From: Pseudorhodoferax aquiterrae
GTDB taxonomy: Bacteria > Pseudomonadota > Gammaproteobacteria > Burkholderiales > Burkholderiaceae_C
Assembly (NCBI RefSeq): GCF_014652235.1
Contig: NZ_BMYK01000009.1
Span: 124,001-188,000 of the forward strand
DNA length: 64,000 nucleotides
Direction of reading: 5' to 3'
Part shown: positions 1,292 through 24,774 of the stretch, in pieces
Position numbering within the stretch: the first letter of the stretch is position 1
Layout of the letters: each line of letters starts with the position of its first letter
Program-made: the position numbers and the translations under genes
Notes under the pieces: model-generated
Databases searched by the model: none
The model's input: the letters and a program-made list of their open reading frames with translations, nothing else
Told to the model about the DNA's origin: nothing

Positions 1292-2346
1292 GGTTGGAAC
1301 GCCGCCACGCGGTTTCGCGTGGCGCCCTGCTGCTGGCGCCCCTGGGCGCCGTCGGCTTCACGCTGCTGGTCGCCGCGCTGCTGGTGCTGTGGGCCGGTGC
1401 GCCCGTGCTGCAGACCTACGGCCTGCTGCTGGCCGGCGGCTTCGGCTCGGTGTTCGCCTGGAGCGAGACGCTCACGCGCGCCATTCCGCTGGTCCTCACC
1501 GGCCTGGCCGCCACGGTGGCCTTCAAGGCCCGGCTGTTCAACATCGGCGCCGAGGGCCAGCTCTATGCCGGCGCCATCGCCGCCGTGGCCGTCGGCGGCC
1601 TGCACGGCGGCACGGGGCTGCAGTGGCCGGTCTGGGCGCTGTTCCCGCTCATGATGCTGGCGGCCGCGCTGGCCGGCGCCCTGCTGCTGCTGGGCCCGGC
1701 CCTCTTGAAGAACAAGCTCGGCGTGGACGAGGTCGTCACCACGCTGTTGTTCAACTTCATCATGCTGCTGGCCGTGGGCGCGCTGCTGGACGGCCCCATG
1801 AAGGACCCGCTGGCCATGGGCTGGCCGCAGAGCGTGGCGCTGCAACCGGACCTGGAGCTGGCCAAGCTCGTCGCGCAGACCCGCGTGCACACCGGCCTGC
1901 TGTGGGGCCTGGCGCTGGCCGTGATCGTCTGGGCCATCTTCCGCTTCACCGTGCTGGGCTTCGACATCCGCGCCCTGGGCGCCAGCCCCCGCGCCGCGGC
2001 CTTCGCGGGCGTGCCGGTCACGCGCACCGTGGTGCTCACCGCCCTGCTCTCGGGCGCGCTGGCCGGCCTGGCCGGCGCCATCGAGGTGGCGGGCCGCACC
2101 AGCTACGTGACGCTGGACATGTCGCCCAACTATGGCTACGCGGGCATCGTGATCGCCATGCTGGCCGGCCTGCACCCGCTGGGCGTGGTGGCCGCCGCCG
2201 TGTTCGTGGCCGGCGTGCTGGTCGGCGCCGACAGCATGAGCCGCGCCGTCGGCGTGCCGACCTACATCGCCGACGTGATCGTGGCCACCGCGCTGCTCGC
2301 GGTGCTGGTGGCCACGCTGCTGACCCAATACCGCGTGCGCAAATGA
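1288..2346 (+). CDS. ABC transporter permease, nucleoside type (first)
   Basis: Inner-membrane channel subunit of the same importer, 352 residues, about nine hydrophobic segments, of the branched-chain/ribose permease superfamily (BPD_transp_2). The FKARLFNIGAEGQLYAGA segment after the second or third helix is the typical cytoplasmic loop of YufP-like permeases. The ATG lies within the stop of the ATPase gene (ATGA), so translation is probably coupled. Its own stop overlaps the second permease in the same way. The substrate is inferred from family only; guanosine, other purine nucleosides or similar compounds are all possible. Confidence 0.92.
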   Translation: MRLERRHAVSRGALLLAPLGAVGFTLLVAALLVLWAGAPVLQTYGLLLAGGFGSVFAWSETLTRAIPLVLTGLAATVAFKARLFNIGAEGQLYAGAIAAVAVGGLHGGTGLQWPVWALFPLMMLAAALAGALLLLGPALLKNKLGVDEVVTTLLFNFIMLLAVGALLDGPMKDPLAMGWPQSVALQPDLELAKLVAQTRVHTGLLWGLALAVIVWAIFRFTVLGFDIRALGASPRAAAFAGVPVTRTVVLTALLSGALAGLAGAIEVAGRTSYVTLDMSPNYGYAGIVIAMLAGLHPLGVVAAAVFVAGVLVGADSMSRAVGVPTYIADVIVATALLAVLVATLLTQYRVRK

Positions 2347-3266
2347 GCGAGATCCTGGACATCCTGGGCAACGCGGCGTTTTGGGTCGCGGTGCTGCGCA
2401 TCGCCTCGCCGCTGATCCTCGGCACGCTGGGCGTGCTGCTGTGCGAACGCGCCGGCGTGCTGAACCTGGGCATCGAGGGCATCATGGTCGCGGGCGCCTT
2501 CGCGGGCTGGCTGGCCGTCTACGCGGGCTGGCCGCTCTGGATGGGCGTGGCCGTGGCCGCGCTGACCGGCATGGCCTTCGGCCTGCTGCACGCCTTCTTC
2601 ACGGTGGGGCTGGCGCTGTCGCAACACGTCTCGGGCCTGGGCATCACCATGCTGGCCACGGCGCTGTCGTACTACGGTTACCGCGTCAGCTTCCCCAAGG
2701 TCACGACGCCGCCCACGGTCACGCCCTTCGCGCCCATGGACTGGCTGCCCCTGCCCATCTTGAGCGCACAGACGCCACTGACCCTGCTGGCCCTGCTGCT
2801 GGTGCCTGCGATCGCCTACCTGCTGTACCGCACGCCGGCGGGCCTGGCGCTGCGCATGGTGGGCGAGAACCCACAGGCTGCCGAAGGCCAGGGCCTGTCG
2901 GTCGCGCGCACGCGCACGGCCGCCATCGTGGCCGGTTCGGCGCTGATGGGCATCGCGGGCAGCTTCCTCACGCTGTCGGCCTTCAACGCCTTCTTCTTCA
3001 ACATGGTCAACGGCCGCGGCTGGATCTGCGTGGCGCTGGTGGTGTTCGCCTCCTGGCGGCCCGGCAAGGCGCTGCTGGGCGCGCTGCTGTTCGCCTTCTT
3101 CGACGCGCTGCAGCTGCGCCTGCAGCAGTCGGGCGACGCGCTGCTGCCCTACCAGCTGTACCTCATGCTGCCCTACGTGTTGTCCATCGTCGCGCTCGTC
3201 GTGGTGGCGCGCAAGGCGGCCTATCCGCAGGCGCTCATGAAGCCGTACCGCAAGGGCGAACGCTAG
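2343..3266 (+). CDS. ABC transporter permease, nucleoside type (second)
   Basis: Second channel subunit of the importer, 307 residues, YufQ-like. The LCERAGVLNLGIEGIMVAG segment matches the equivalent loop in the first permease and is the family signature. Eight or nine hydrophobic helices can be traced. The start overlaps the preceding stop by four bases (ATGA). This is the last gene of the operon: the next gene starts 21 bases after the TAG with its own promoter-like sequence. Confidence 0.92.
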   Translation: MSEILDILGNAAFWVAVLRIASPLILGTLGVLLCERAGVLNLGIEGIMVAGAFAGWLAVYAGWPLWMGVAVAALTGMAFGLLHAFFTVGLALSQHVSGLGITMLATALSYYGYRVSFPKVTTPPTVTPFAPMDWLPLPILSAQTPLTLLALLLVPAIAYLLYRTPAGLALRMVGENPQAAEGQGLSVARTRTAAIVAGSALMGIAGSFLTLSAFNAFFFNMVNGRGWICVALVVFASWRPGKALLGALLFAFFDALQLRLQQSGDALLPYQLYLMLPYVLSIVALVVVARKAAYPQALMKPYRKGER

Positions 3267-3274
3267 CCTCCTGG

Positions 3275-3280
3275 GACAAT
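3275..3280 (+). promoter_or_regulatory. -10 element of predicted leaderless promoter, tapT
   Basis: GACAAT preceded by TGG (extended -10 pattern), then exactly seven bases (CGACGGC), then the ATG at 3288. No Shine-Dalgarno sequence is present. Transcription would start at or next to the A of the start codon. No convincing -35 is visible. Confidence 0.5.
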
Positions 3281-3287
3281 CGACGGC

Positions 3288-4022
3288 ATGCCCCATGCCG
3301 TCTCCCTGTTGCGCGCCGCCCGGCTCACGCACAGCGTCAAGCCCTTTCTCGCGCGCCGCGGCTCGCGCAGCCCGCGCTGCGCTGGCTGTCGCCTGTTGCC
3401 CAGCCATTGCATCTGCGGCCTGCGGCCGGTGGTGTCCACGGACGCCGGCATGTGCCTGCTGATGGCCGACATCGAACCGCTCAAGCCCAGCAACACGGGT
3501 TGGCTGATTGCCGACCTGGTGGCCGACACCTTCGCCTTCGCCTGGGCCCGCACCGCCGTCGATCCGGCCCTGCTCGCGCTGCTGGCCGACCCGCAGTGGC
3601 AGCCCTACGTGGTGTTTCCGGGCGAATACGCGGCGCCCGAACGCGTGGTGCACGCCGTGCAGCCGGCCCCGGCCGCATCAGGCAGGCGGCCGCTGTTCAT
3701 CCTGCTGGACGGCACCTGGTCCGAGGCACGCAAGATGTTCGGCAAGAGCCCCTACCTGGCCCACCTGCCCGTGCTGAGCCTGCAGCCCGACCGCGCCTCC
3801 GAGTACAAGCTGCGCCGCTCGCGCCGCAACGACCACTTCTGCACCAGCGAGGTGGCCGCCATGTGCCTGGCGCTGGCGGGCGAGGAACAAGCAGCCCAGG
3901 CGCTGGACGCCTGGCTGGACGTGTTCAGCTACCACTACCTGCAGGCCAGGAACCAGCAGAAGATCGACTGGGACAGCCCGGCACACCAGCGCCTGCGGGC
4001 GCTGGAAGCTTCAACCGTTTGA
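3288..4022 (+). CDS. tapT: DTW-domain tRNA uridine aminocarboxypropyltransferase (TapT/YfiP family)
   Basis: Predicted to transfer the 3-amino-3-carboxypropyl group of S-adenosylmethionine to a uridine in tRNA, giving acp3U. The 244-residue protein has a zinc-type cluster near the N-terminus (C31, C34, C41, C43 in CAGC...CIC). The family-defining DGTW motif is at 141-144, in LLDGTWSEARKMF. The start at 3288 is supported by the adjacent -10 element and the lack of any better upstream start. The stop overlaps by 12 bases the stop of the unknown gene on the other strand. TapT and TuaA/DTWD proteins are close relatives, so the exact tRNA position is not certain. Confidence 0.8.
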   Translation: MPHAVSLLRAARLTHSVKPFLARRGSRSPRCAGCRLLPSHCICGLRPVVSTDAGMCLLMADIEPLKPSNTGWLIADLVADTFAFAWARTAVDPALLALLADPQWQPYVVFPGEYAAPERVVHAVQPAPAASGRRPLFILLDGTWSEARKMFGKSPYLAHLPVLSLQPDRASEYKLRRSRRNDHFCTSEVAAMCLALAGEEQAAQALDAWLDVFSYHYLQARNQQKIDWDSPAHQRLRALEASTV

Positions 4023-5667: not shown

Positions 5668-6533
5668 CAGGAATCTCCAGGAAAACCGTAAAGCCGGGCC
5701 GGGTTGGCGACCAGGATGTCGTGCGCCACAGCGTCGGAGCCGCACCAGCCGTGCAGCACGTCCAGCAGGTCGGCATCGTTGATGCTGCAGGGCGCCTCGG
5801 TCGTGTGCGGCCAGTCGCTGCCCCAGAGCATGCGCTCGGGCGCGGCCTGCACGAAGGCGCGACCCAAGCATTGCACATCGTCATAGGCTGGTGCCCCGGC
5901 ACGCGAGCGCATGTAGACGCCGGACAGCTTGATCCAGGTACGGCCCGCGTCCAGCAGCCGGCGCAGCACGGCGAAGGCCGGGCTCGATGGCCCATCGGCC
6001 GGATCGATGCGGCCCAAGTGGTCGACGACCAGCGGCGTGGCCAGGCCGGCCAGCAGCGCCTGCATGGCGACGATCTGTTCCGGCTCGGCCAGGAGCTGGA
6101 TGTGCCAGCCCAGCCGCGCCGCCTTCTCCGACAGCGCCTGCAGCATCTGCGGTGTGGTCCGGCCCCAGGACTGGGGCGAGACGAAGTTCACGCGCAGGCC
6201 GCGCACGCCTGCCGCGGCCAGCCGGTCGAGCTCGGCGTCCTCCACGCCGGCGCCCACCACCGCCACCCCGCAGGCGGCGGCGCCGAGCTGCGCCAGCGCA
6301 TCCAACGTGCAGGCGTTGTCGGTGCCGTAGGTGGACGGTGTGACGACCACGCAGCGCTGCGTGCCCAGACGCTGCTGCAACAACCGGTAGGCGCCGACCT
6401 CGGCCCGTGGCGGCGTGCGCTGCCAATGCGGTGACGGCGCGAAGCGCGGATCGAAGATGTGCATGTGGCTGTCGCAGGCGCCGGCCGGCACGGCACGGCC
6501 GAGCCGGTTGCTGCCAGCCGAGTGCGGAACCAC
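5667..6533 (-). CDS. amidohydrolase (2-pyrone-4,6-dicarboxylate hydrolase / lactonase type), copy 1
   Basis: TIM-barrel metallohydrolase of the Amidohydro_2 family (288 residues), related to LigI-type pyrone dicarboxylate lactonases and to D-galactarolactone isomerase. Visible active-site elements are DSHMHIFD (H23, H25), VVDHLGRID with the barrel histidine, and LWGSDWPHT with the catalytic Asp. The start is GTG at 6533, four bases after the stop of the upstream Bug gene. It is paralogous to the protein at 11165-12070: both share a TPSTYGTDN segment and the GSDWPH motif. Lactone hydrolysis is family knowledge; the substrate is unknown. Confidence 0.87.
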   Translation of the reverse strand: MVPHSAGSNRLGRAVPAGACDSHMHIFDPRFAPSPHWQRTPPRAEVGAYRLLQQRLGTQRCVVVTPSTYGTDNACTLDALAQLGAAACGVAVVGAGVEDAELDRLAAAGVRGLRVNFVSPQSWGRTTPQMLQALSEKAARLGWHIQLLAEPEQIVAMQALLAGLATPLVVDHLGRIDPADGPSSPAFAVLRRLLDAGRTWIKLSGVYMRSRAGAPAYDDVQCLGRAFVQAAPERMLWGSDWPHTTEAPCSINDADLLDVLHGWCGSDAVAHDILVANPARLYGFPGDS

Positions 6534-6537
6534 CGGA

Positions 6538-7497
6538 TCAATCCAGCTTGATGCCGCCCTTCTTCACCACCTCGGCCCATTTCGCGTCTTCCTTCTTGAG
6601 GAAAGTGCCGAACTCGGCCGGCGTGGAGCCCACGGGCTGCGTGCCCATCTCGACGAAGCGCTGCTTGACCTCGTTCTCGGCCATGACCTCGACCACGGCC
6701 TTGTGGAGCGCAGCGACGGTGGCCGCCGGCACGCCCGCAGGCAGCAACAGGCCATGCCACTCGTAGGCCTCGTAGCCGGGCAGCACGGTCTCGGCCACGG
6801 TGGGCACATGGGGCAGGCGCTTGCTGCGCTCGGGTGAGGACACGGCCAATGCGCGCAGCTTGCCGGACTCCACCAGCGGCGAGGCCGCGGCCACGGTGGC
6901 GAACATGAAGTCCACCTGCCCGCCCGTCACGTCCACGATGGCCGGGCCACCGCTCTTGTAGCCCACGTGCACCATGTCCAGGTCCAGCCGCTGGCGCAGC
7001 AGTTCCGCGGCCAGGCGTTGCACCGTGCCGCTGCCGCCCGAAGCGTAGTTCAGCTTGCCGGGCTGGGCCTTGGCGCGGGCGACGAGATCCTTCACGTCCT
7101 TGATCGGCGAATCGCCTTTGACGATCAGCACGTTGGGTGCCAGCGCCACCAGCGTGAGCGGCTGCAGCGCATCGGCCGCATACGGCATCTTGGGGAACAG
7201 GTGCGGGTTGATGGAATACGGCGTCGCGTCGTAGAGCACCGTGGTGCCATCCGGCTTGGACTTGGCCACGTAGCTTTCGCCGATGGTGCCGCTGGCGCCC
7301 GCGCGGTTGTCCACGATCACGCTGGTGCCGAGCTTGGTGGCGAGGCGCTGGGCCAGCACGCGGGCCAGCGCATCGGCCGCGCCGCCGGGGGCGTAGGGCA
7401 CGACGATGGTGACGGTCTTGTCGGCGAACTGGGCGTGGGCGGCCAGGCTGGCGACCAGGGCACAGGCGGCGAAGAGGCTTCGGACGAGTTTTTTCAT
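6538..7497 (-). CDS. Bug-family (TctC) periplasmic solute-binding protein 1
   Basis: Periplasmic substrate-binding protein of the tripartite tricarboxylate transporter class (319 residues). A Sec signal peptide ends in AAHAQF. The two ligand-contact loops are recognisable: VVPYAPGGAAD and YASGGSGTVQRL, followed by HVGYKSGGPAIVDVTGG. The start has a good ribosome binding site (AAGGAGACCTCTTC-ATG). It is third from the end of the operon and follows the second Bug gene by 44 bases. No TctA or TctB membrane partner lies in the window, so it must work with a distant transporter or as a sensor. Confidence 0.92.
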   Translation of the reverse strand: MKKLVRSLFAACALVASLAAHAQFADKTVTIVVPYAPGGAADALARVLAQRLATKLGTSVIVDNRAGASGTIGESYVAKSKPDGTTVLYDATPYSINPHLFPKMPYAADALQPLTLVALAPNVLIVKGDSPIKDVKDLVARAKAQPGKLNYASGGSGTVQRLAAELLRQRLDLDMVHVGYKSGGPAIVDVTGGQVDFMFATVAAASPLVESGKLRALAVSSPERSKRLPHVPTVAETVLPGYEAYEWHGLLLPAGVPAATVAALHKAVVEVMAENEVKQRFVEMGTQPVGSTPAEFGTFLKKEDAKWAEVVKKGGIKLD

Positions 7498-7541
7498 GAA
7501 GAGGTCTCCTTGGGATGCGATGGTGTTCTGGTCGACGGCGT

Positions 7542-8534
7542 TCACTCGGCCTTGAGATCGAGGTCGCGGGCCAGCTGGGTGTTCTCGCGCACTTCGCGCT
7601 GCAGCTGGGCGGCGAACGGCGCGCCACAGTGGCCCTGGGCTTCCATGCCCATGCCGCGCAGCTTCTCGACGGTGGCAGGGGCGCGCGTGAAGTCCTGCGA
7701 CACGCGCTCCAGCGCCGCCAGCACGGCGGGCGGCGTGCCGGCCGGAGCCAGCAGGCCGTACCAGGCGTCGGCGCTGTAGCCCTTCACGCCGGCTTCCTCG
7801 AAGGTCGGCACGTTCGGCAGCAAGGGGGAGCGCTGCGGCGCGGCCACGGCCAGTGCGGTGAGCTTGCCCGATTGCACCTGCGGCAGCACCGAGCCCAGCG
7901 TCGCGAACGAGCTGTCCACCTGGCCGCCGATCAGGTCGGTCACGGCCTGTGCCGCACCCTTGTACGGGATGTGGTTCATGCTGGTGCCCGTGAGCCGCGT
8001 GAAGTGCGCGCTCGCGAAATGGCCCGAGCTGCCGCTGCCCGGCGTGGCATAGGTGCGCTTGCCGGGTTCGGCCTTGACCTGCTGCAAGAAGGCCGCCAGC
8101 GTCTTGACGGGCATGGCCGGCCCGACCGCCAGCACCGTGGGACTGACGGCCAGCGTGCACACCGGAGCGAAGGACTTCACCGCATCGAACTTCACGCGGC
8201 TGGCGTACAGCGCCGGGATCATGGTGTGGTTGGTCGCCCCGAGCAGCAAGGTGTAGCCGTCGGCCGGCGCGCTCGCGACGGCTTCCGCCGCCAGGATGGT
8301 GTTGGCGCCGGGCTTGTTGTCCACGATGACGGGCTGGCCGAGCTGGCGCGCTGCGTGGTCGGCAAAAGCGCGCGCGACCACGTCGGTCGGGCCGCCGGCC
8401 GAGAAGCCGACCACGATGCGCACCGGCTTGCCGGGCCAGGCGGCCGGGGCGGACTGGGCCGAGGCCAGTGCGGCGGCGGCCAGCAGCATGGCGCCTGTCC
8501 CCAGCCGCCAGAGAGTGCGGGCCTGCCGGCTCAT
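7542..8534 (-). CDS. Bug-family (TctC) periplasmic solute-binding protein 2
   Basis: 330-residue solute-binding protein. The signal peptide ends near ALASAQS, and the ligand loops are VVGFSAGGPTDVV, ATPGSGSSGHFAS and HIPYKGAAQAVTDLIGG. The ATG at 8534 overlaps the stop of the dehydrogenase gene (ATGA), which fixes the start. It clearly differs in sequence from the other three Bug proteins, so this is not a recent duplication. It carries an unusual Cys in the middle domain (PVCTLAVSPTVL). Confidence 0.92.
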   Translation of the reverse strand: MSRQARTLWRLGTGAMLLAAAALASAQSAPAAWPGKPVRIVVGFSAGGPTDVVARAFADHAARQLGQPVIVDNKPGANTILAAEAVASAPADGYTLLLGATNHTMIPALYASRVKFDAVKSFAPVCTLAVSPTVLAVGPAMPVKTLAAFLQQVKAEPGKRTYATPGSGSSGHFASAHFTRLTGTSMNHIPYKGAAQAVTDLIGGQVDSSFATLGSVLPQVQSGKLTALAVAAPQRSPLLPNVPTFEEAGVKGYSADAWYGLLAPAGTPPAVLAALERVSQDFTRAPATVEKLRGMGMEAQGHCGAPFAAQLQREVRENTQLARDLDLKAE

Positions 8535-15925: not shown

Positions 15926-16465
15926 ATGCGCTTCGCCGTCTGCCTGGCCCTGGCCTGCACCGCCTCCACCGCCTTCGCTGCGCTGGACCTGGGCGAGAAG
16001 GCCCCCGATTTCACCGCGCAGGCCGCCTTGGGCGGCCAGGTCTTCCAGTACGCGCTGCACCAGGAACTGGCCAAGGGCCCCGTGGTGCTGTACTTCTTTC
16101 CGATGGCCTTCTCCGAGGGCTGCTCCATCGAGGCGCACAACTTCGCCGAGGCCATCCCCGAGTTCAAGGCGCTGGGCGCGAGCGTGATCGGTGTCTCGCG
16201 CGACGAGATCGACGTGCAGAAGCGCTTCTCGGTCTCGGCCTGCCGCGGCAAGTTTCCGGTCGCCGCGGACCCCGACCAATCCATCATGAAGTCCTACGAC
16301 GCGGTGCTGACGCTCAGGCCCGAGTACGCCAACCGCGTCTCCTACCTGATCACGCCGGACGGCAAGGTCGCCTACCAGTACACCAGCCTCAATTCGGACA
16401 AGCATGTGGAGAAGGTGCTGGGCGCGCTGCGGCAGTGGGCCGCCCAGCGCCCGCCGGCGCGGTGA
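15926..16465 (+). CDS. exported peroxiredoxin (AhpC/TSA, Bcp-like)
   Basis: Thiol peroxidase predicted to act in the periplasm: 179 residues with a clear Sec signal (MRFAVCLALACTASTAFA). The peroxidatic Cys is C66 in MAFSEGCSIEAHNF. The usual Bcp resolving Cys five residues later is replaced by His (H71). A second Cys (C106, in FSVSACRGKF) could act as the resolving residue of an atypical 2-Cys enzyme. The start follows ACGAGGAG by seven bases. It lies beside the methionine-oxidation locus, which fits a role in envelope oxidative stress. Confidence 0.85.
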   Translation: MRFAVCLALACTASTAFAALDLGEKAPDFTAQAALGGQVFQYALHQELAKGPVVLYFFPMAFSEGCSIEAHNFAEAIPEFKALGASVIGVSRDEIDVQKRFSVSACRGKFPVAADPDQSIMKSYDAVLTLRPEYANRVSYLITPDGKVAYQYTSLNSDKHVEKVLGALRQWAAQRPPAR

Positions 16466-16483
16466 GCCGGACGCGGCCACGCC

Positions 16484-18037
16484 CTACTCCAGCGCGAAGC
16501 GGAACACCGCGCCGGCGCCGGGACGCGGCTCCAGCCGGATGTCGCTGCCGTGCAGCAGCAGGATGCGCCGCACGATCATGAGCCCCAGGCCGCCGCCGCG
16601 CTCGCCGCTGCTGGCGAAGGCCGGCCGCGTGAACAGCACGGGCTGCAGCTCGCGCGGGATGCCGGGGCCGGTGTCGGCCACCTCGACCTGCACGCCGGCC
16701 TGGTCCCCACCCGCTCCGCGCAGCAGCCGCACGGCGATCTCGCCGCCCTCGGGCGTGTGGCGGATCGCGTTGTCCAGCAGGTTGGTCAGCACGCGCTCGA
16801 TCATGGCCAGGTCGGCGTGCACCACGGGCAGTCCCGGCGCGATGTCGGCCACCAGGCGCTGGCGGCGCGCCTCGGCGGCCAGCTCGAACTTCTGGAACAG
16901 GTCCTGCACCAGGTCGGCCAGCGCGAAGCGCTCTTTCTCGGGCTGCACCACGCCGTATTCCAGCCGCGCCAGCTCGAACAGTTCCTGCGCGAGCCGGCCG
17001 ACCTTGCGGCTCTGGCCCAGCGCGATGTCCAGGTAGCGGCCACGCGCCTCGGCATCGAGCAGGTCGGCCTTCATGCGCAGCGTTTCCAGGTAGCCGTGCA
17101 GCGAGGTCAGCGGCGTGCGCAGGTCGTGCGAGATGTTGGCGAACAGCTCGCGCCGCTGCTGGTCCTGGGCCGACAGCGTCTTCCACTGGGCGTGCACGCG
17201 CTGCGCCATGCGGGCGAAGGCCTGGCCCAGCAGGCCGATCTCATCGGCGCGGGCCGCCACCGCATCCAGCGCCGGCGTCTGGCCGAGGGCATCCACGCCG
17301 CCGCGCTCGGCCTCCTGCACGGCGGCGGTGAGCCGGCGCAACGGCCGCGTGATGACGTGGAACGCCACCAGCCCGGCCAGCAGGCCCAGCAGCGCCACCA
17401 GCGCGATCGCGCCCAGCGTGGTGCGCAGGGCCGAGCCGGCGGCCAGGCGGGCGCTGAGCGCGTCGCGGTCCTCGCCCGACAGCACCACGTAGACATAGCC
17501 GGCATCGCGCCCGTCCACCTGCAGCGGCGCGGCGCTGAAGACCTTGGCGGCCCCCGGGTTGCGCGGGTCTTCGCCCAGCACCGGCAGCGGCGCACCGCCC
17601 AGCAGGCGGCGCACCGGCGCCAGATCGACCCGGTCCAGTTTCAGGTGGCCCGGCGGGGCCGCCTGCCCGACGATGCGCCCGTCGCGGTCGAGCAGGTAGA
17701 CCTCCACGCTGGGGTTCACGGCCATCAGCATGTCGAACAGCCGGTGCACGGCGCCGGCATCCAGGCCATCGGGCCGCATCAGTTCGGTGTTGCCGGCGAT
17801 GTGCGCGGCCAGCCCCAGCGACAGCCGCTGCGTCAGCTCGCGTTCGTGCCGTTCGTTGGCGGCCATCTGCAGCCAGGCAGACACCGCCGAACAGGCCAGC
17901 AGCAACACGGCGAACACCAGCGACAGGCGGCGCGACAGCGTCCAGCCGGCCAGCGCAAACCGGTGCACCCTTCGGCCTGCGGCCTGTCCCGCCAAGCGGG
18001 AGCGAGCTGGCTTGGGGCGGCCCGGCGCGGCGCTCAC
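16484..18037 (-). CDS. sensor histidine kinase of the methionine-oxidation locus
   Basis: 517-residue membrane kinase. TM1 is about residues 35-56, followed by a periplasmic sensor of about 150 residues with no Cys, then TM2 (about 206-229), HAMP and HisKA with phospho-acceptor H304 (FANISHDLRTPL). The ATPase domain shows NLLDNAIRHTP, VADTGPGIP and GGGLGLMIVRR. The GTG start overlaps the response regulator stop (GTGA). Residues 4-23 (Arg/Ala-rich) are encoded by a GC-rich repeat also found in etfA, so they are probably a late addition. Its position opposite the b561/YedY genes recalls HprS, which controls msrPQ in E. coli. Confidence 0.9.
   Translation of the reverse strand: MSAAPGRPKPARSRLAGQAAGRRVHRFALAGWTLSRRLSLVFAVLLLACSAVSAWLQMAANERHERELTQRLSLGLAAHIAGNTELMRPDGLDAGAVHRLFDMLMAVNPSVEVYLLDRDGRIVGQAAPPGHLKLDRVDLAPVRRLLGGAPLPVLGEDPRNPGAAKVFSAAPLQVDGRDAGYVYVVLSGEDRDALSARLAAGSALRTTLGAIALVALLGLLAGLVAFHVITRPLRRLTAAVQEAERGGVDALGQTPALDAVAARADEIGLLGQAFARMAQRVHAQWKTLSAQDQQRRELFANISHDLRTPLTSLHGYLETLRMKADLLDAEARGRYLDIALGQSRKVGRLAQELFELARLEYGVVQPEKERFALADLVQDLFQKFELAAEARRQRLVADIAPGLPVVHADLAMIERVLTNLLDNAIRHTPEGGEIAVRLLRGAGGDQAGVQVEVADTGPGIPRELQPVLFTRPAFASSGERGGGLGLMIVRRILLLHGSDIRLEPRPGAGAVFRFALE
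17968..18026. repeat. GC-rich palindromic repeat, copy 1 (in histidine kinase N-terminus)
   Basis: Shares an ordered series of blocks with copy 2 at 31228-31286: CCTTCGGCC, GTCCC, CCAAG, GGGAGC, GGGGCGGCCC(G/A)GCG-like end. It contains short palindromes such as GGCCTGCGGCC. It lies inside the coding sequence of the kinase, antisense to the reading direction, and encodes residues 4-23. Only two copies are seen in this window. Confidence 0.6.
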
Positions 18038-18771
18038 GCGGCCTCCCCCGCATCGGCGTCGCCCGCGACCAGCCGGTAGCCGCGGCCCCAGACCGTGAGG
18101 ATGCGGCGCGGCTGCGCCGGGTCGGCCTCGATCTTGGTGCGCAGCCGGTTGATGTGGGTGTTGACGGTGTGCTCGTAGCCGTCGTGCTGGTAGCCCCAGA
18201 CCTTGTTGAGCAGCTCCAGCCGCGAGAACACGCGGCCCGGGTGCCGCGCAAAGAAGTGCAGCAGGTCGAACTCGCGCGGCGTCAGCTCGATGGGTCTGCC
18301 TTCGACCTGCACCTCGCGCGTGACCGGGTCCAGGCCGACGGCGCCGACCTCCAGCCGGCCCGACTCCACGCGCGCGCTGCGCGCCATGGCCTCGCTGCGC
18401 CGCAGCAGCGCACGCACGCGCGCCACCAGTTCCAGCACCGAGAAGGGCTTGGCCAGGTAGTCGTCCGCCCCCAGCTCCAGGCCCAGGATGCGGTGCACCT
18501 CGCTGGAGCGCGCGCTGGTGATGATGATGGGCGTGTAGCGGCCCACACCGTGCTCGGCGCGCGCGGCGCGGCAGATCTCCAGCCCGTCCACGCCCGGCAG
18601 CATGAGGTCCAGCACCAGCGCGTCCCAGCGCCCGGCCTGCAGCGCACGCAGGCCGGCATGGCCATCGGCCGCATGCGTGACGGCATAGCCCTCGTCGGCC
18701 AGGTGCATGCGCATCAGCTCGGCGATGTGGGCATCGTCCTCGACGATCAGTACGCGCTTGGGGGTGTCCAT
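18034..18771 (-). CDS. OmpR-family response regulator of the methionine-oxidation locus
   Basis: 245-residue two-domain regulator. The receiver has acidic pocket E11/D12/D13 and phosphorylation site D55 (ALVLDLMLPG), plus the conserved Lys in LAKPFSVLEL. The C-terminal winged helix carries LTPREFDLLHFFARHPG and HTVNTHINRLRTKIE. It is translated with the kinase (GTGA overlap). It is divergent from the cytochrome b561 gene over 99 bases, so it is the obvious candidate regulator of that operon. Confidence 0.92.
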   Translation of the reverse strand: MDTPKRVLIVEDDAHIAELMRMHLADEGYAVTHAADGHAGLRALQAGRWDALVLDLMLPGVDGLEICRAARAEHGVGRYTPIIITSARSSEVHRILGLELGADDYLAKPFSVLELVARVRALLRRSEAMARSARVESGRLEVGAVGLDPVTREVQVEGRPIELTPREFDLLHFFARHPGRVFSRLELLNKVWGYQHDGYEHTVNTHINRLRTKIEADPAQPRRILTVWGRGYRLVAGDADAGEAA

Positions 18772-18870
18772 GGGGCCTGGATTGTGGGACCAAGCGGCGC
18801 GGCGAGTTGTCACGATTAATTGAAGTTTCCGTGATGAAACGGCCAGCGCGTGCCGCCCACACTGCGCCCC

Positions 18871-19506
18871 ATGCCGAAACACCTGCACCCCACCGACGGA
18901 CCGGTCCACCCCGGCTGGCTGCGCGCCTGCCACTGGCTCAATGCGCTGGCGGTGCTGGTGCTGGTGGCCAGCGGCTGGCGCATCTACAACGCCGCGCCCG
19001 TCTTCCCGTTCGAGTTTCCCAAGGCACTGACGCTCGGCGGCTGGCTGGGCGGCGCGCTGCAATGGCACTTCGCGGCCATGTGGCTGCTGGCCGCCAACGG
19101 CCTCGTCTACCTGCTCCTGAACCTGGCCACCGGGCGCCTGGCGCGCAAGTTCTTCCCGCTGACGCCCGCCGGCATCTGGCGCGATCTGAAAGCGGCGTTG
19201 CGCGGCGCCCTGGCCCACGCCGACCCGCGCCACTACAACAGCGTGCAGCGCGCGGCCTACCTGTTCGTGTGGCTGGACACCGTGCTGCTGGTGCTGTCGG
19301 GCCTGGTGCTCTGGAAGTCGGTGCAGTTCGGCCTGCTGCGCGAGCTGCTGGGCGGCTACGAGTTCGCACGCCGCATCCACTTCGTCGCCATGGCGGGGCT
19401 GGCCGGCTTCGTCGCCGTGCACCTCGTGATGGTGGCCCTGGTGCCGCGCACGCTGCTGGCCATGCTGACCGGCCGCCACCACACCAACGCTCAGGAGGCC
19501 GCATGA
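18871..19506 (+). CDS. cytochrome b561-family membrane protein (YedZ1-like)
   Basis: 211-residue heme b protein of the inner membrane with four hydrophobic helices and candidate heme-ligating His residues: RACHWLNAL, LQWHFAAMW, RRIHFVAMAG and AVHLVMVAL. It probably passes quinol electrons to the periplasmic molybdoenzyme encoded next (stop/start overlap ATGA). The start at 18871 is chosen because it precedes the first conserved segment; an in-frame GTG at 18850 would add seven residues. A weak CACACT element lies seven bases before this ATG. It is related to the electron-transfer subunits paired with YedY1-type proteins, not to MsrQ by obvious sequence. Confidence 0.88.
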   Translation: MPKHLHPTDGPVHPGWLRACHWLNALAVLVLVASGWRIYNAAPVFPFEFPKALTLGGWLGGALQWHFAAMWLLAANGLVYLLLNLATGRLARKFFPLTPAGIWRDLKAALRGALAHADPRHYNSVQRAAYLFVWLDTVLLVLSGLVLWKSVQFGLLRELLGGYEFARRIHFVAMAGLAGFVAVHLVMVALVPRTLLAMLTGRHHTNAQEAA

Positions 19507-20294
19507 AGATCTTCCGCCGTCCCGCGCTGCCGGGCATCGGTGCCGAGGCCGCCTTGGCCGAGGCCCGCCGCCTGCTCGGCCGGCGCATCGAACAGCCGGC
19601 ACGCCGGGCCTTCCTGCAGCGCACGCTGACGCTGGGCGGCCTGTCCATGCTCACGGGCTGCAGCATCAGCGACAACGCGGGTGTGGAGGCTGCGCTGACC
19701 CGTGTCTCGCAATTCAACGACCGCGTGCAGGGCTGGATCTTCGACCCGAACCAGCTGGCGCCGACCTACCCGGAGTCCATGATCGCGCGGCCGTTTCCGT
19801 TCAACGCCTACTACGGCGAAGACGAGATCCGGCAGGTGGACGAAGCCAGCTGGCGGCTCGAAGTCACGGGCCTGGTGGCCGACAAGCGCCGCTGGACGCT
19901 GGCCGAGCTGCGTGCCATGCAGCAGACCGACCAGGTCACGCGCCACATCTGCGTGGAGGGCTGGAGCGCCATCGGCAAGTGGGGCGGCGTGCGTTTCTCC
20001 GACTTCCTGGCGCGCGTGGGCGCCGACACCAGCGCGAAGTTCATCGGTTTCAAGTGTGCCGACGACTACTTCACCAGCATCGACATGCCGACCGCGCTGC
20101 ACCCGCAGACGCTGCTGGCGCTGAGCTGGGACGGCGCGCCGCTGCCGCCGAAGTACGGCTTTCCGGTGAAGCTGCGCATGCCCACCAAGCTGGGCTACAA
20201 GAACCCCAAACACATCCAGGCGATCTTCGTGACCAACACGAATCCTGGCGGCTACTGGGAAGACCAGGGCTACAACTGGTTCGGAGGCAGCTGA
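19503..20294 (+). CDS. molybdopterin-dependent oxidoreductase, YedY/MsrP-like
   Basis: 263-residue periplasmic enzyme of the sulfite oxidase/YedY fold. The molybdenum-ligating Cys is C150 in RHICVEGWSAIGKWGG. The N-terminus has a twin-arginine motif (RRAFLQ, 34-39) followed by a hydrophobic stretch, matching Tat export with cofactor loaded; the LTGC that follows (C53) could make it a lipoprotein. The family reduces protein-bound methionine sulfoxide (MsrP, YedY1). Electrons should come from the b561 protein encoded immediately upstream. The MXKDX peptide and MsrA/MsrB downstream support this substrate. Confidence 0.88.
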   Translation: MKIFRRPALPGIGAEAALAEARRLLGRRIEQPARRAFLQRTLTLGGLSMLTGCSISDNAGVEAALTRVSQFNDRVQGWIFDPNQLAPTYPESMIARPFPFNAYYGEDEIRQVDEASWRLEVTGLVADKRRWTLAELRAMQQTDQVTRHICVEGWSAIGKWGGVRFSDFLARVGADTSAKFIGFKCADDYFTSIDMPTALHPQTLLALSWDGAPLPPKYGFPVKLRMPTKLGYKNPKHIQAIFVTNTNPGGYWEDQGYNWFGGS

Positions 20295-20384
20295 GGGCGA
20301 CCGCCCCAGGTGCTTGCGACACGCCAGGCCGCGTTCATGGCGAACCGGCCCCATTCCCCACCAACGACCCCAAGGGACTCTGCA

Positions 20385-20606
20385 ATGAACAAGCTCACCA
20401 CCACCGTGCTGGCCGCCTTCCTGGCGATCGGCTCCGTCTCGGCCATGGCCGCCGACGAGATGAAGAAGGACTCCATGGCCAAGGACAGCATGGCCAAGGA
20501 TGGGATGAAGAAGGATTCCATGGCCAAGGACGGCATGAAGAAGGACGGCATGGCCAAGGACGGCATGGCCAAGGACGGCATGAAGAAGGACGCGATGAAG
20601 CCCTGA
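20385..20606 (+). CDS. exported methionine-rich pentapeptide MXKDX-repeat peptide (MrpX-like)
   Basis: 73-residue precursor with a Sec signal (MNKLTTTVLAAFLAIGSVSA, cleavage near AMAA). The roughly 50-residue mature part is made of nine tandem pentapeptides MKKD(S/G/A) or MAKD(S/G) plus a short end, with 10 methionines, about one residue in five. There are no Cys or aromatic residues in the mature part. The ribosome binding site is AAGGGACTC. This is the MXKDX family; a similar Met-rich peptide (MrpX) in Azospira is oxidised by hypochlorite and repaired by YedY1. Here it follows a YedY-like gene by 90 bases. Confidence 0.85.
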   Translation: MNKLTTTVLAAFLAIGSVSAMAADEMKKDSMAKDSMAKDGMKKDSMAKDGMKKDGMAKDGMAKDGMKKDAMKP

Positions 20607-20682
20607 GGCTGGTGCCGCTGCCCCGGGCTGGCGCACCATGATGCGCCGCCACTTCCAGGACCGACCCATCGACGAGGACCGC

Positions 20683-21420
20683 ATGAAGACATCTGCCCCA
20701 CCCCGGGCCCCCGCCCTGCCGCGCCGGGGCGCGCTCACGGCCATGGCGCTGCTGCTGGGCGGCGGCGTGCTGGCCTACAAGGCCCTGCCCGCACTGGCCG
20801 CCGAGAGCGCGGTCGCCATCCCCCCGCCTGCCGACACCGGCGCGGCGCCCACCGCCACCGCCGAGACGGCGGTGCTGGCCGGCGGCTGCTTCTGGGGTGT
20901 GCAGGGCGTGTTCCAGCATGTCAAGGGCGTCACCAGCGCGGTCTCGGGCTACGCCGGTGGCGACGCGCGCACGGCCAACTACGGGGCCATCGGCTCGGGC
21001 CGCACCGGCCACGCCGAGGCCGTGCGCATCACCTACGACCCGCGGCAGATCGGCTTCGGCCAGCTGCTGCAGATCTACTTCTCGGTGGTGCACGACCCGA
21101 CCCAGCTGAACCGCCAGGGGCCGGACTTCGGCACGCAGTACCGCTCCACCGTGTTCGCGCAGAACGCCGAGCAGGCCCGCATCGCCAAGGCCTACATCGC
21201 CCAGCTCGACGCGGCCCGCAGCTTCGGCGCGCCCATCGCCACCACCATCGAGATGGACAAGCCCTTCTACGCGGCCGAGGCCTACCACCAGGACTACATG
21301 ACGCTGCACCCGAGCCAGCCCTACATCGCGATCCACGATCTGCCCAAACGCGAGAACCTCAAACGCGTCTTCCCTGCGCTGTACCGCGACAAGCCGGTGC
21401 TGGTTGGCACCGGCGCATGA
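20683..21420 (+). CDS. msrA: peptide-methionine (S)-S-oxide reductase MsrA, exported form
   Basis: Reduces the S-epimer of methionine sulfoxide. The 245-residue protein has the active-site GGCFWG (C69), TGHAEAVRI and the Tyr/His-rich YHQDYM region. Unlike the common cytosolic MsrA it carries about 60 extra N-terminal residues: [19 protein letters not shown] is a signal sequence with twin arginines one short of canonical, followed by a Pro/Ala linker. So it should work in the periplasm, or be membrane-tethered. The start at 20683 is preferred over an in-frame ATG at 20638. It is coupled to msrB (ATGA). Confidence 0.88.
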
Positions 21421-21935
21421 ACTGGAGAACCCTCTTGGACCACGCCCGCAGAACCCTGCTCCGCACCCTGGGCGGCAGCGCCGCGCTGGCCGTTGGCTGG
21501 CAGCTTACGCCCACTGCGCGCGCCGCAAAAACCTACGCCGTGACGCGTACCGACGCCGAGTGGAAGGCCCAGCTCACGCCCGCGCAGTACCAGGTCCTGC
21601 GCCAGGCCGGCACCGAGCGGCCCTTCTCCAGCCCGCTCAACCACGAGAAGCGTGCCGGCACCTTCGCCTGCGCGGGCTGCCAGCAGCCCCTGTTCTCCTC
21701 CACCACCAAGTTCGACAGCGGCACGGGCTGGCCCAGCTTCTGGCAGGCCCTGCCCGAGGCGGTGGAGAAGAAAAGCGACCGCAGCTGGGGCATGGTGCGC
21801 GACGAGACCCTGTGCGCGCGCTGCGGCGGCCACCTGGGCCATGTGTTCGACGACGGCCCCAAGCCGACCGGGCTGCGCTATTGCATGAACGGCCTGGCGC
21901 TGACCTTCACGCCAGGAGCCGCCCCTGCGGTTTGA
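21417..21935 (+). CDS. msrB: peptide-methionine (R)-S-oxide reductase MsrB, exported form
   Basis: Reduces the R-epimer of methionine sulfoxide. The 172-residue protein has the structural zinc Cys pairs CAGC (85, 88) and CARC (133, 136), GTGWPSFW, and catalytic C156 in LRYCMNG. The N-terminus has arginines followed by a hydrophobic stretch ending ARAAK, a plausible signal peptide for periplasmic delivery. The start overlaps the msrA stop (ATGA). Together MsrA, MsrB and the YedY-like enzyme would cover both sulfoxide epimers outside the cytoplasm. Confidence 0.9.
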
Positions 21936-21953
21936 CGACCGCGGCATGCACGC

Positions 21954-22667
21954 TCAGTACCACTCCACCGCCCCCAACAGCATGTAGCCCACGCCGTGCA
22001 CGGTCTTGATGATGCGCGGGCGCTGCGGGTCCAGCTCCAGGCGGCGGCGCAGCTTGGCGATGCGCACGTCGATGCTGCGCTCGGGCAGGTCCAGCTCCGG
22101 TGTGCCCGTGAGCTGCTCGCGGCCCAGGATCTGGTTGGGCTGGCGCAGCAGGGCCTGCAGCACCAGGTTCTCCGCCGTGCCCAGCAACTGCTCGCGGCCG
22201 TCGGGGCCGCGCAGCACACCGGCGGCGCAGTCCAGGTTCCAGCCGGCGAACCGGGCCTGGCGGCGCGGCTCCTGCGCCGCACCTGGCGCACTGCCGCGCC
22301 GGCGCAGGATGCTGCGCACGCGTGCCACCAGTTCGCGCGGCTCGAAGGGCTTGACCACGTAGTCGTCGCCGCCGCCCTCCAGTCCCATCACGCGGTCGGC
22401 CGTGTGGCCGCGCCCGGTCAGGATCAGCAGGCCGCAGTCGGGCCGGCGCGCGATCTCGTGCACCAGGTCCAGCCCGTCCATGTCGGGCAGGCCCAGGTCG
22501 ACGATGCACAGCGCCGGCCGGCCGGCGCGCAGGAAGCGCTGGGCCGAGGCGCCGTCGCGGAACACCTCGGCCCGAAAGCCGAAGCCCTCCAGCGCCAGCA
22601 GCACCACGCGCACGACCTCGGGGTCGTCCTCGACCAGCACCACCTGGGGGGCGTCCGTCTCAGACAC
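21954..22667 (-). CDS. OmpR-family response regulator (second two-component system)
   Basis: 237-residue regulator. The receiver has phosphorylation site D57 (LCIVDLGLPDMDG) and Lys in VVKPFEPREL. The winged-helix output domain has ERSIDVRIAKLRRRLE and the end IIKTVHGVGYML. The GTG start at 22667 lies inside the end of the kinase gene (8-base overlap), which fixes it. It is convergent with msrB across 18 bases. There is no direct sequence sign of its target; nearby candidates are the acyl-CoA operon upstream of the kinase and the Msr operon. Confidence 0.88.
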   Translation of the reverse strand: MSETDAPQVVLVEDDPEVVRVVLLALEGFGFRAEVFRDGASAQRFLRAGRPALCIVDLGLPDMDGLDLVHEIARRPDCGLLILTGRGHTADRVMGLEGGGDDYVVKPFEPRELVARVRSILRRRGSAPGAAQEPRRQARFAGWNLDCAAGVLRGPDGREQLLGTAENLVLQALLRQPNQILGREQLTGTPELDLPERSIDVRIAKLRRRLELDPQRPRIIKTVHGVGYMLLGAVEWY

Positions 22668-24606
22668 CGGGCAGTTCCTGCAGGAAGCGCGCCAGTTCGC
22701 GCTGGGTGAAGGGCTTGGGCAACAGCGGCCAGCCGGCGTCCTCGGCCGTGGCCGCGGCGGGGGCATAGCCGCTCATGAGCGCCACGCGCGGCACGCCGGC
22801 CGCGCGGGCCTGGCGGGCCACGGCGCGGCCGTCCACCTCGCCCGGCATCACCACGTCGGACAGCACCAGCGCGATGCCCTGGGCATGGCCCAGGATCTCC
22901 AGCGCCTCCGCACCGCTCTCGGCCTGCAGCACCGCGTAGCCCAGGTCCACCAGCGCGCGGCACACCACCTGGCGCACCTCGGCGTCGTCTTCCACGAGCA
23001 AGGCCAGGGCCTGCGCGGCGATGCGGCCAGGCGCTGCCTCGGCCGCCCGGGCGGGCGCGGCGGGCTGCCCGGCCAGCGGCAGCCACAGCGACACCGTGGT
23101 GCCCAGCCCCGGTCTGCTCGCCAGGTCGATGCCGCCGCCGGACTGGCGCACGAAGCCGTAGACCATGGCCAGGCCCAGGCCCGTGCCCGCGCCCGGCCGC
23201 TTGGTCGTGAAGAAGGGCTCGAAGACATGGGCGCGCGTGGCCGCGTCCATGCCGTGGCCGTCGTCGTGCAGGTCCACGCGCACATAGCGGCCGGGCGCGG
23301 CCTGCAGCTCGGCGGCACGGGCCGCGTCCAGCGTGGCCGCGGCCGCGCACAGGCGCACCCGGGTGGCGCGCGCGTCGCGGGCGTTCAGCACCAGGTTGAC
23401 CAGCGCGTCCTGCAGCCGGTGCGAGTCGACCCAGGCGTCGGGCGCGCCGTCGGCTTCGATGGCAATGGCCAGTTCGCGCGGCAAGGCGCTGCGCAGCAGG
23501 CGTGCCACGGCGTCGGCCAGCGCCGCCACGTCGGTCGCCTGCGCCTGCAGCGGCTGGCGCCGCGCGAAGCCCAGCAGTGAGCGGATCAGCCCGGTGCCGC
23601 GCCCGGCGGCGGCCAGCGTCGGTTCCAGGAACTCGGCCGCCGCCGCGCCGCCGATGCCGCGCTCGCGCATCGCGCCCAGGTTGCCGACGATCACGGTCAG
23701 CATGTTGTTGAAATCGTGCGCGATGCCGCTGGTCAGCTGGCCCAGCGCCTCCATCTTCTCGGTGTGCGCGAGCCGCTCCTGCGCGCGGCGCAGCTCCGAC
23801 ACGTCGAAGGTCAGCTCGAAGCAGCCGACCACCGTGCCGTCGGCCGCCTTCTCGGGAATCAGCGTGGTGCGGGCCGTGCGCACGCGGCCGTCGACGCAGC
23901 GCGCCTCGTATTCGAAGCTGACCGGCTCGCCGTCGAATGCCCGCGCGACGTTGGGCCGGATGCTGTCGTAGACGGCGTCGCCCAGGTACTGGCGCGCGCT
24001 GATGGCGTCCAGCCGCTGCGGGTCCAGGCCGAACCACTCGACATAGCCGCGGTTGATGTAGCGGTAGGCCTTGCGCGCGTCGAAGTAGGCGATCAGCGCG
24101 GGCAGCGAGTCGGTGATCAGCCGCATCTGCGCCTCGGACAGCCGCAGCTCGCTGGTGCGCTCGGCCACGCGGCGCTCCAGTTCGGCGGCGTGCTCGCGGA
24201 TCTGCCGCTCGGCCTGGCGCTGGGCCGTCACGTCCGAGTACAGCGTGATGAAACCCACACCAGGCACCGGCCTGCCGCTCACCTGCAGCACCTGGCCGTC
24301 GGGGCGCGTTCGCTCGAAGGCGTGGGCCTCGAAGCGCCGGGCCTGGGCCACGCGCTCGGCCACCTGGGCCTCGACATCGCCGGGGCCATAGTCGCCGCGC
24401 TCGGCGTTGTAGCGGATGAAGGACGCGAACGGCGCGCCCGCGTGCAGCATGGCCGGCGGAAAATCCAGCAGCCGCCCGAAGGCGGCGTTCCACGCCACCA
24501 GGCGCAGCTGCTCGTCCATCAGCGTGAAGCCCTGGTCGATCAGGTCCAGGGCGGCCTGCAGCGAGGCGTAGCGCTGCAGGCGTTCGGTGGCGTCGATGGT
24601 CGTCAT
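22660..24606 (-). CDS. PAS-PAS hybrid sensor histidine kinase with receiver domain
   Basis: 648-residue cytoplasmic kinase with no membrane helix. An N-terminal PAS of the PAS_7 type (about 15-125, [17 protein letters not shown]) is followed by a short coiled coil (130-158) and a second PAS (160-275). HisKA has H297 ([11 protein letters not shown]), followed by HATPase ([20 protein letters not shown]). A C-terminal receiver ([10 protein letters not shown]..., LSDVVMPG) ends the protein. The Asp of that receiver may serve as a phosphate sink or relay to the OmpR-type partner. The start at 24606 is the first residue of the conserved region. Confidence 0.9.
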
Positions 24607-24617
24607 GTAGGTCAAAA

Positions 24618-24623
24618 ATTCTA
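24618..24623 (-). promoter_or_regulatory. -10-like element before the hybrid kinase gene
   Basis: TAGAAT on the minus strand, 11 bases before the ATG at 24606, with no Shine-Dalgarno sequence between. Transcripts from it would have a leader of only a few bases. No clear -35. Confidence 0.35.
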
Positions 24624-24774
24624 GGCGCCCGACCGTTGGCCGGGGGCGGGGTGCAACAGCGCTGCGAACGGCGCAATCATTGGTCACATTCGCTGCCAGA
24701 GCCGGAAAAACTGCTGTTCCATCCTTCGTCCAGGCGCCGCTGCGACCACCGCACGGGCCACCTGGAGGAGACCG

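Follow-up and report, generated by a model that had tools for sequence, protein, structure and literature searches.

A probable OrhK/OrhR-type locus of Pseudorhodoferax aquiterrae with exported MsrA and MsrB behind a Met-rich peptide gene

Gene content of the locus

The 64,000-nucleotide stretch of Pseudorhodoferax aquiterrae DNA analysed here (hereafter the window; NCBI RefSeq assembly GCF_014652235.1, contig NZ_BMYK01000009.1, positions 124,001 to 188,000, from a genome of 7.1 Mb) carries at 16484-21935 a set of genes that appears suited to sensing and repairing methionine oxidation in the cell envelope. A histidine kinase and an OmpR-family response regulator, together a two-component system (TCS), lie on the minus strand, divergent from plus-strand genes for a b561 cytochrome, an MsrP-like enzyme, a Met-rich MXKDX peptide, MsrA and MsrB, in that order. 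Gene content was read from the open reading frames (ORFs) of the window and from Pfam and NCBIfam profile searches, with a threshold of E 0.001 for Pfam and for the NCBIfam model of the twin-arginine translocation (Tat) signal. All of the genes that a first-pass annotation had named in this interval were located in this way, and their identities uphold its description of a periplasmic methionine-oxidation locus beside a TCS, with two Msr enzymes added. The features are as follows.

16484..18037, minus strand: sensor histidine kinase, OrhK-type (HAMP, HisKA and HATPase_c by Pfam; start codon uncertain)
18034..18771, minus strand: OmpR-family response regulator, OrhR-type (Response_reg and Trans_reg_C by Pfam; overlaps the start of the kinase gene)
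18809..18834, plus strand: predicted operator GTCACGATTAATTGAAGTTTCCGTGA, TCACG-N15-CGTGA (found at 29 of the 30 loci whose divergent regulator is adjacent)
18835..18863, plus strand: predicted promoter (TGAAAC at the -35 position directly behind the operator; -10-like CACACT at 18858-18863)
18871..19506, plus strand: membrane cytochrome b561 (PF01292, 90.8 bits)
19503..20294, plus strand: MsrP-like molybdopterin enzyme (PF00174, 115.6 bits; overlaps the b561 gene)
20385..20606, plus strand: secreted Met-rich MXKDX peptide, 73 aa (TIGR02953, 73.5 bits against a cut-off of 41)
20683..21420, plus strand: exported MsrA (TIGR00401, 164.6 against 108.1 bits; PF01625)
21417..21935, plus strand: exported MsrB (TIGR00357, 172.7 against 113.05 bits; PF01641; overlaps the MsrA gene)

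MsrA and MsrB are encoded by separate genes (140.3 and 120.1 versus 522 bits with the fusion model), unlike the MsrAB of Neisseria and Haemophilus, in which the two are fused in one protein. The gap between the MXKDX gene and msrA is 76 bp, and the stem-loop within it is not unusually stable (fold z-score -0.20). No plus-strand terminator was found in 16400-22100, where there was one minus-strand match. The genes from b561 to MsrB form one apparent operon and would be transcribed together.

Recurrence of the gene set in other genomes

A contig scan of related genomes supplied the best 80 loci out of at least 596 stretches (585 relatives), a sample that favours close relatives. The b561 gene precedes the MsrP-like gene in 76 of the 80 (the other four loci begin no more than 160 bp from the MsrP-like gene), and an MXKDX-like ORF is present in 77 (there is none in L092, L105 and L140). 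Counting the window, there are 30 loci in which the regulator gene lies next to these genes and is divergent from them. When genes within 4.5 kb were counted and loci at contig ends set apart, the tails of 27 TCS-linked loci comprised MsrA (nine), MsrB-MsrA (five), MsrA-MsrB (four, including the window), DipZ (four) and DipZ-MsrA (one), with none of these genes in the last four. MsrA, MsrB and/or DipZ are therefore encoded in cis at 23 of 27 TCS-linked loci with downstream room, compared with 6 of 18 loci that have neither TCS nor operator.

The complete set occurs in 9 of the 27 loci, and also in a second genome of the same genus (G069) and in two genomes from a survey of the order (L214, L216). 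Eight of the nine complete-set loci come from named organisms, all in Comamonadaceae and Alcaligenaceae. Among the loci fetched, Pseudorhodoferax sp. Leaf265 is the closest named relative by regulator and by enzyme, and the MsrP-like protein was found at E<=1e-45 in 15 of 150 genomes of the family, its own included. Because the gene set recurs in other genomes, the locus is not a chance assembly. The full set is recurrent rather than unique, and the core occurs in enterics, Pseudomonas and Burkholderiales. The search for conservation of the MXKDX gene together with the YedY-like and Msr genes thus found the whole set again in relatives, while the suggestion that the combination is unusual did not hold up, since the core was already published for uropathogenic Escherichia coli (UPEC OrhKR, see below) and the full set recurs.

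The core without Msr genes is carried on plasmids of Rahnella and E. coli. Among 5426 E. coli genomes, 352 contain DNA resembling the E. coli stretch from regulator through b561 and MsrP-like genes to the peptide. In 348 of them the match spans 80% or more of the query, and the weak matches include torR at least once. The chromosomal b561 copy of E. coli AVS0366 (L221, 845-1443) is annotated as frameshifted. For a mobilizable 6.4-kb plasmid of Klebsiella variicola, p7_KVTMDU (L020), an incomplete gene table lists four genes, encoding an IS3 transposase, b561, the MsrP-like enzyme and an MXKDX peptide. In Bordetella genomosp. 2 (L078) the stretch from operator to MXKDX stands twice, at 1549-3406 and 6386-8243, about 4.8 kb apart, by tandem duplication or assembly error.

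A conserved operator at a fixed distance from the promoter

The letters TCACG-N15-CGTGA at 18810-18834 differ by one base in each half-site from TCACA-N15-TGTGA, the published form for OrhR (PMC8550376), which the E. coli chromosomal copy matches exactly in its half-sites. At up to three mismatches, this is a single site in the 7.1-Mb genome. With the spacer set one base shorter, the pattern matched the genome 28 times and its reversed control twice but did not pick up the true site, and it was discarded. The gap between regulator and b561 genes in seven TCS-linked loci contains the same site with small changes. By pattern, the operator is present at 29 of the 30 loci whose regulator is adjacent (window included) and at 26 of the 47 that have no regulator beside them, and 24 of the latter 26 come from Pseudomonas.

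Of 74 distinct sequences, 73 have a -10-like hexamer at a distance of exactly 23 bp on the downstream side of the operator; the next best offset holds for 29. The set behind these counts is not unbiased, consisting of 76 sites filtered for an AT-rich centre and a TT..AA core and cut to 74 distinct downstream stretches. A plain sigma-70 scan returned no promoter in 16400-22100, which fits an activator-dependent promoter and proves nothing. The transcript is predicted to start at or next to the b561 ATG, and so to be leaderless.

The regulator and its site occur together and also precede msrB-dipZ-msrA

We surveyed 300 genomes of the order, the window's own included, for the site at no more than one mismatch. 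The site was present in 7 genomes and the regulator in 10, and all 7 lay within the 10, an overlap with P 3e-12 on the assumption of independent genomes, an assumption that shared ancestry violates. Each of the seven sites precedes either b561-MsrP-like-MXKDX or msrB/msrA genes, and the reversed control pattern had no match in the 300 genomes. A second sample consisted of 24 chosen genomes, of which 12 had the site at b561 and no adjacent TCS, 10 had no site and 2 had an adjacent TCS. At up to two mismatches the site occurred in 14 of the 15 genomes with the regulator and in none of the 9 without it; in the fifteenth regulator-bearing genome, a site that has diverged further lies next to the regulator gene.

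The regulator is encoded elsewhere in the genome in all 11 searched Pseudomonas genomes that have the site before b561 with no TCS at hand, and in Bordetella genomosp. 13; a second site was found in 10 of the 12. The distant TCS loci, fetched for 8 of 13 genomes (seven Pseudomonas, one Bordetella; seven of the 12 and the genome of L092), share one arrangement, with the regulator divergent from msrB, followed by msrA, in eight of eight, and dipZ between the two in six. The operator was found by pattern in seven of the eight loci and by eye in the last. Since exported msrB(-dipZ)-msrA genes stand behind the same regulator and operator in Pseudomonas and, among Burkholderiales, in Bordetella genomosp. 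13 and some others, the two Msr enzymes of the window most likely belong to the same regulon.

Some loci depart from these arrangements. In L210, upstream of 4996, a TCS is accompanied by the left operator half-site only, with no msr or MsrP-like gene in the fetched DNA. In Achromobacter pulmonis LMG 26696 (L076, upstream of 5397) there is neither regulator nor operator before b561, and the apparent end of a kinase gene stands directly before it.

Features of the encoded proteins

Judged by profile, the MsrP-like protein is a relative of MsrP rather than MsrP itself, because it scores 80.6 bits against the MsrP model, whose cut-off is 207; its nearest solved relative by sequence is YedY (1xdq, E 4e-13). 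It has a twin-arginine signal (R34 R35), a lipobox ending at C53 and a molybdenum ligand, C150. This cysteine is invariant in a nine-row alignment and sits in the motif RHICVEGW, which occurs in 98 of 100 distinct relatives. Twin-arginine signal and lipobox were found together in 96 of 100 distinct sequences by motif and in the other 4 by eye, and because the signal ends in a lipobox the enzyme is predicted to be a Tat lipoprotein. The first-pass annotation had called it a Tat-exported YedY/MsrP-like enzyme with C150 as its ligand; the Tat signal and the conserved cysteine stand, and the predicted lipid anchor is additional. The residue behind the lipobox cysteine is Asp in three sequences by motif, among them the Rahnella and K. 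variicola plasmid copies, and likewise in the E. coli plasmid copy; elsewhere it is Ser, Asn or another. Since this residue varies, either membrane might hold the lipoprotein.

MsrQ-type membrane partners of MsrP enzymes belong to the ferric-reductase-like family. The cytochrome of the window has PF01292 as its only Pfam match at the stated threshold, with no match of the MsrQ type, and is predicted to be a quinol-fed electron donor of the MsrP-like enzyme. The MXKDX peptide, with an assumed cleavage site, has a mature form of about 51 aa that contains 10 Met.

The cysteines of MsrA and MsrB can be assigned roles from what is generally known of these families. The MsrA of the window has a single cysteine, assigned as catalytic; its MsrB has five, forming two CxxC pairs and the catalytic residue, and no other. 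Exactly five cysteines were present in 25 of 26 aligned MsrB segments, and the sixth cysteine of the remaining one lies in the leader. Among 48 aligned MsrA segments, 39 have one cysteine and nine have two; in eight of the nine the extra residue precedes the catalytic domain or follows a stop, and in L089 it is inside the domain. Both leaders contain RR and look Tat-like by eye. Because both enzymes are without resolving cysteines, they would need an outside thiol donor, perhaps DipZ. DipZ is the natural candidate because dipZ adjoins msrA/msrB in relatives and because the window's genome encodes a homologue, 54% identical, on another contig. The DsbD-like transmembrane region of DipZ falls just below its Pfam cut-off, and the thioredoxin-like domains score above theirs. 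In G069 (L023, 4938-6191), DipZ is encoded between MXKDX and MsrA.

The kinase is predicted to have a periplasmic PDC/PAS-like sensor between two transmembrane helices, with C49 in the first. Among 50 aligned kinases, all distinct, M105 is present in 50, M87 in 44 and C49 in 47. An AlphaFold model of residues 32-238 (mean pLDDT 74.5) has weak PDB matches only, such as the sensor domains of DctB, CusS and WalK, which decide nothing. In HprS, two periplasmic methionines sense oxidation and a transmembrane cysteine matters for signalling, according to a review (PMC10151825), and the parallel is suggestive only. In a regulator tree of 55 rows, a supported branch separates the window and 52 other rows from two paralogues of its own genome. 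With the divergent neighbour labelled as b561, msrB, msrA, other or outgroup, this tree, whose bootstrap did not settle, needs 6 changes of neighbour type versus 16.0 for shuffled labels.

Relation to known systems

The closest published counterpart is the OrhK/OrhR-c3566-c3567-c3568 system of UPEC, for which electrophoretic mobility shift assays, knock-outs, co-transcription and a response to H2O2 are reported (PMC8550376). The two systems share a kinase/OmpR pair beside an operon for b561-like, MsrP-like and Met-rich proteins, an order also found in E. coli copies, and an operator of the form TCAC[A/G]-N15-[T/C]GTGA. They differ in that the UPEC operon, as described there, is without msrA/msrB and is co-transcribed with the hemolysin operon, whereas the window adds exported MsrA and MsrB. 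In terms of gene content, the locus is an OrhKR-type system to which both classical Msr enzymes have been added. The earlier proposal that it combines the designs of Azospira and HprSR did not survive, since its core layout is that of UPEC OrhKR, its regulator falls below the HprR cut-off and its cytochrome matches PF01292 only.

Other systems share parts of this design. The SigF/NrsF-MrpX-YedY1/YedZ1 system of Azospira (Melnyk 2015) likewise pairs a Met-rich peptide with an MsrP-like enzyme as a periplasmic methionine cycle, but is controlled by an extracytoplasmic function (ECF) sigma factor rather than a TCS, and Msr enzymes are not mentioned for that locus in the passages of citing papers that describe it. 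In P. militaris MP and D. hydrogenophilus LT-1, exported msrA and msrB were noted in 2015 in genomic islands whose genes against oxidative stress include the yedYZ/mrpX function; these are perchlorate islands, and the accessible text describes no OrhKR operator (PMC4623255). Brucella BcrS/AbcS-bcrXQP joins a Met-rich peptide to an MsrP/Q-like pair and is inducible by HOCl, but is under an ECF16 sigma/anti-sigma pair with a GTAAC-type promoter (PMC8315932). The Bradyrhizobium EcfF/OsrA regulon (PMC3420878) also sets one stress regulator over a DsbD-like thiol supply and Msr genes, of which one product is predicted to be periplasmic; it differs in its ECF16 regulator and scattered genes.

E. coli HprSR-msrPQ shares TCS control of periplasmic methionine sulfoxide repair and a sensor with periplasmic Met and transmembrane Cys, and differs in having MsrQ instead of b561; the regulator and enzyme of the window fall below its curated cut-offs. 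To our knowledge, HprSR-msrPQ includes no Met-rich peptide.

What looks new is the shared site, by which the OrhR-type regulator would also control an Msr/DipZ module, in Burkholderiales as well as in Pseudomonas. A search of open-licence PubMed Central articles by title and start of abstract returned no paper joining OrhR to msrB-dipZ-msrA.

Proposed mechanism and alternatives

Because the layout is the same as in UPEC OrhKR and the operator half-sites are nearly identical, we think it likely that the window encodes an envelope regulon of the OrhK/OrhR type that is directed at methionine oxidation and gathered into one apparent operon. Its kinase would sense oxidation outside the inner membrane, most likely via M105 and M87, with membrane C49 relaying the signal, as has been reported for HprS. 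Once phosphorylated, the regulator would bind the 26-bp operator at 18809-18834 and activate a promoter with its -10 element 23 bp further on. Among the products, the Met-rich peptide would be sacrificed to soak up oxidant, the lipid-anchored molybdoenzyme would be fed from the quinol pool by b561, and the exported one-cysteine MsrA together with MsrB would handle the S and R sulfoxides, drawing thiol electrons perhaps from the DipZ encoded elsewhere. The inducing signal need not be chlorine, because UPEC OrhKR is reported to respond to H2O2.

Several observations weigh against this reading. The -10-like CACACT of the window matches TATAAT at three of six positions, and in the UPEC-like copy the -10 stands 22, not 23, bp behind the site by hand count. 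Three of the ten regulator-bearing order genomes are without a good site, although one of them has half a site and another has msrB-dipZ-msrA behind a degenerate site. Inspection by eye of the exceptions showed a single degenerate half-site in L080 and a degenerate site in L211. In the Pseudomonas locus L092 there is no site before b561 in a genome that encodes the regulator; the TCS locus of that genome (L185) has a diverged site between the regulator gene and msrB. At 25 of 26 loci with the site and no adjacent TCS, there is no Msr or DipZ gene in cis, and the dipZ gene of the window's genome has neither an operator nor an msr neighbour. The NCBIfam Tat model, which did match a Pseudomonas MsrB, matched no window protein at E 0.001. 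The conserved Met and Cys of the kinase may be structural. Methionine sulfoxide reduction by the MsrP-like subfamily would follow by analogy with work in other species, and the kinship with MsrP is distant by the scores given above. The choice of signal counts here too, as UPEC OrhKR is reported to respond to H2O2 and HprSR better to HOCl.

The OrhK/OrhR-type reading could be extended, tentatively and with more doubt than confidence, to a single TCS regulon that constitutes a complete, regenerable methionine redox buffer of the envelope. The peptide would be restored by two routes, one through quinol, b561 and the MsrP-like enzyme and the other through DipZ, MsrA and MsrB; the b561 and msrB-dipZ-msrA modules would be interchangeable, joined by an operator with fixed 23-bp spacing, and fused in some lineages. 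Independently of this extension, a readable DNA site would tie OrhKR, MrpX/YedY, exported MsrA/MsrB and DipZ, which were described separately, to one regulator and make the regulon predictable in many genomes, and the locus gives a testable case of a Met-rich peptide recycled by more than one enzyme.

The alternative to such recycling that survives best, with a substantial if less than even chance, is that the two Msr enzymes serve envelope proteins generally, or are passengers, and that the MsrP-like enzyme alone recycles the peptide. Many relatives have b561-MsrP-like-MXKDX without msrA/msrB in cis, and in L211 and L213 msrB-dipZ-msrA adjoins a TCS while the DNA fetched contains no MXKDX gene. 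The same site nevertheless stands before both modules, and the arrangement of msrA and msrB behind MXKDX varies (A-B, B-A, A alone), as though they had been recruited repeatedly.

It is improbable that the operon serves mainly against copper or metal stress, with a kinase that senses periplasmic copper, a peptide that binds Cu(I) and Msr enzymes that repair copper-driven oxidation. E. coli MsrPQ has reportedly been linked to copper stress, the sensor model has a weak structural likeness to CusS among other sensor domains, and in L021 (P. fungorum pBIL) the module lies beside copC/copD, TlpA and DsbA genes. However, L021 shows neither TCS nor operator, Pfam finds no Cus-type efflux gene in the operon, the regulator scores 170.8 bits against a heavy-metal regulator cut-off of 279.2, and the response reported for OrhKR is to H2O2 (PMC8550376).

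An OmpR-type TCS beside an MsrP-type enzyme, with comparable Met and Cys features in the sensor, recalls the HprSR-MsrPQ system of E. coli; that identity is very unlikely and was rejected by family cut-offs, as the regulator scores 156.3 bits against 353 for HprR, the enzyme falls similarly short of the MsrP cut-off (80.6 against 207), and the cytochrome is of the PF01292 type only. Control by an ECF sigma factor (SigF/BcrS, ECF16), as in Azospira and Brucella, is scarcely credible for the window, where a promoter pattern scan rejected an ECF-type promoter, even though such promoters precede the same effector genes elsewhere.

The consensus for ECF16, as quoted in PMC3420878, is tGTAACc-N16-CGAA. 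ECF16-like promoters were found in 16 of 35 loci without the operator (14 of 32 with repeated genomes counted once), and in none of the 64 loci with the operator, window included. The table behind these counts leaves out 4 of 103 loci, which have no usable stretch upstream of b561, and enters three genomes twice (L025/L084, L028/L096 and L031/L141), with 100 distinct MsrP-like sequences among the 103. A search with one ECF query (E<=1e-6) found no ECF gene in 12.5 kb of the window or near TCS loci, but it is a weak test because the query also missed loci with ECF-type promoters. From the promoter counts, 16 of 35 versus 0 of 64, it appears that two unrelated stress regulators have come to control the same effector genes.

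Flanking genes

Downstream of the locus, at 21954-24675 on the minus strand and convergent with msrB, lies a second, separate signalling pair, an OmpR-type regulator and a PAS-containing hybrid kinase. On the other side, convergent with the kinase gene, a periplasmic peroxiredoxin of the AhpC/TSA type is encoded at 15926-16465 on the plus strand. The peroxiredoxin gene is kept at the same place in G069 (L023, 99%) and in Leaf265 (L063, 97%).

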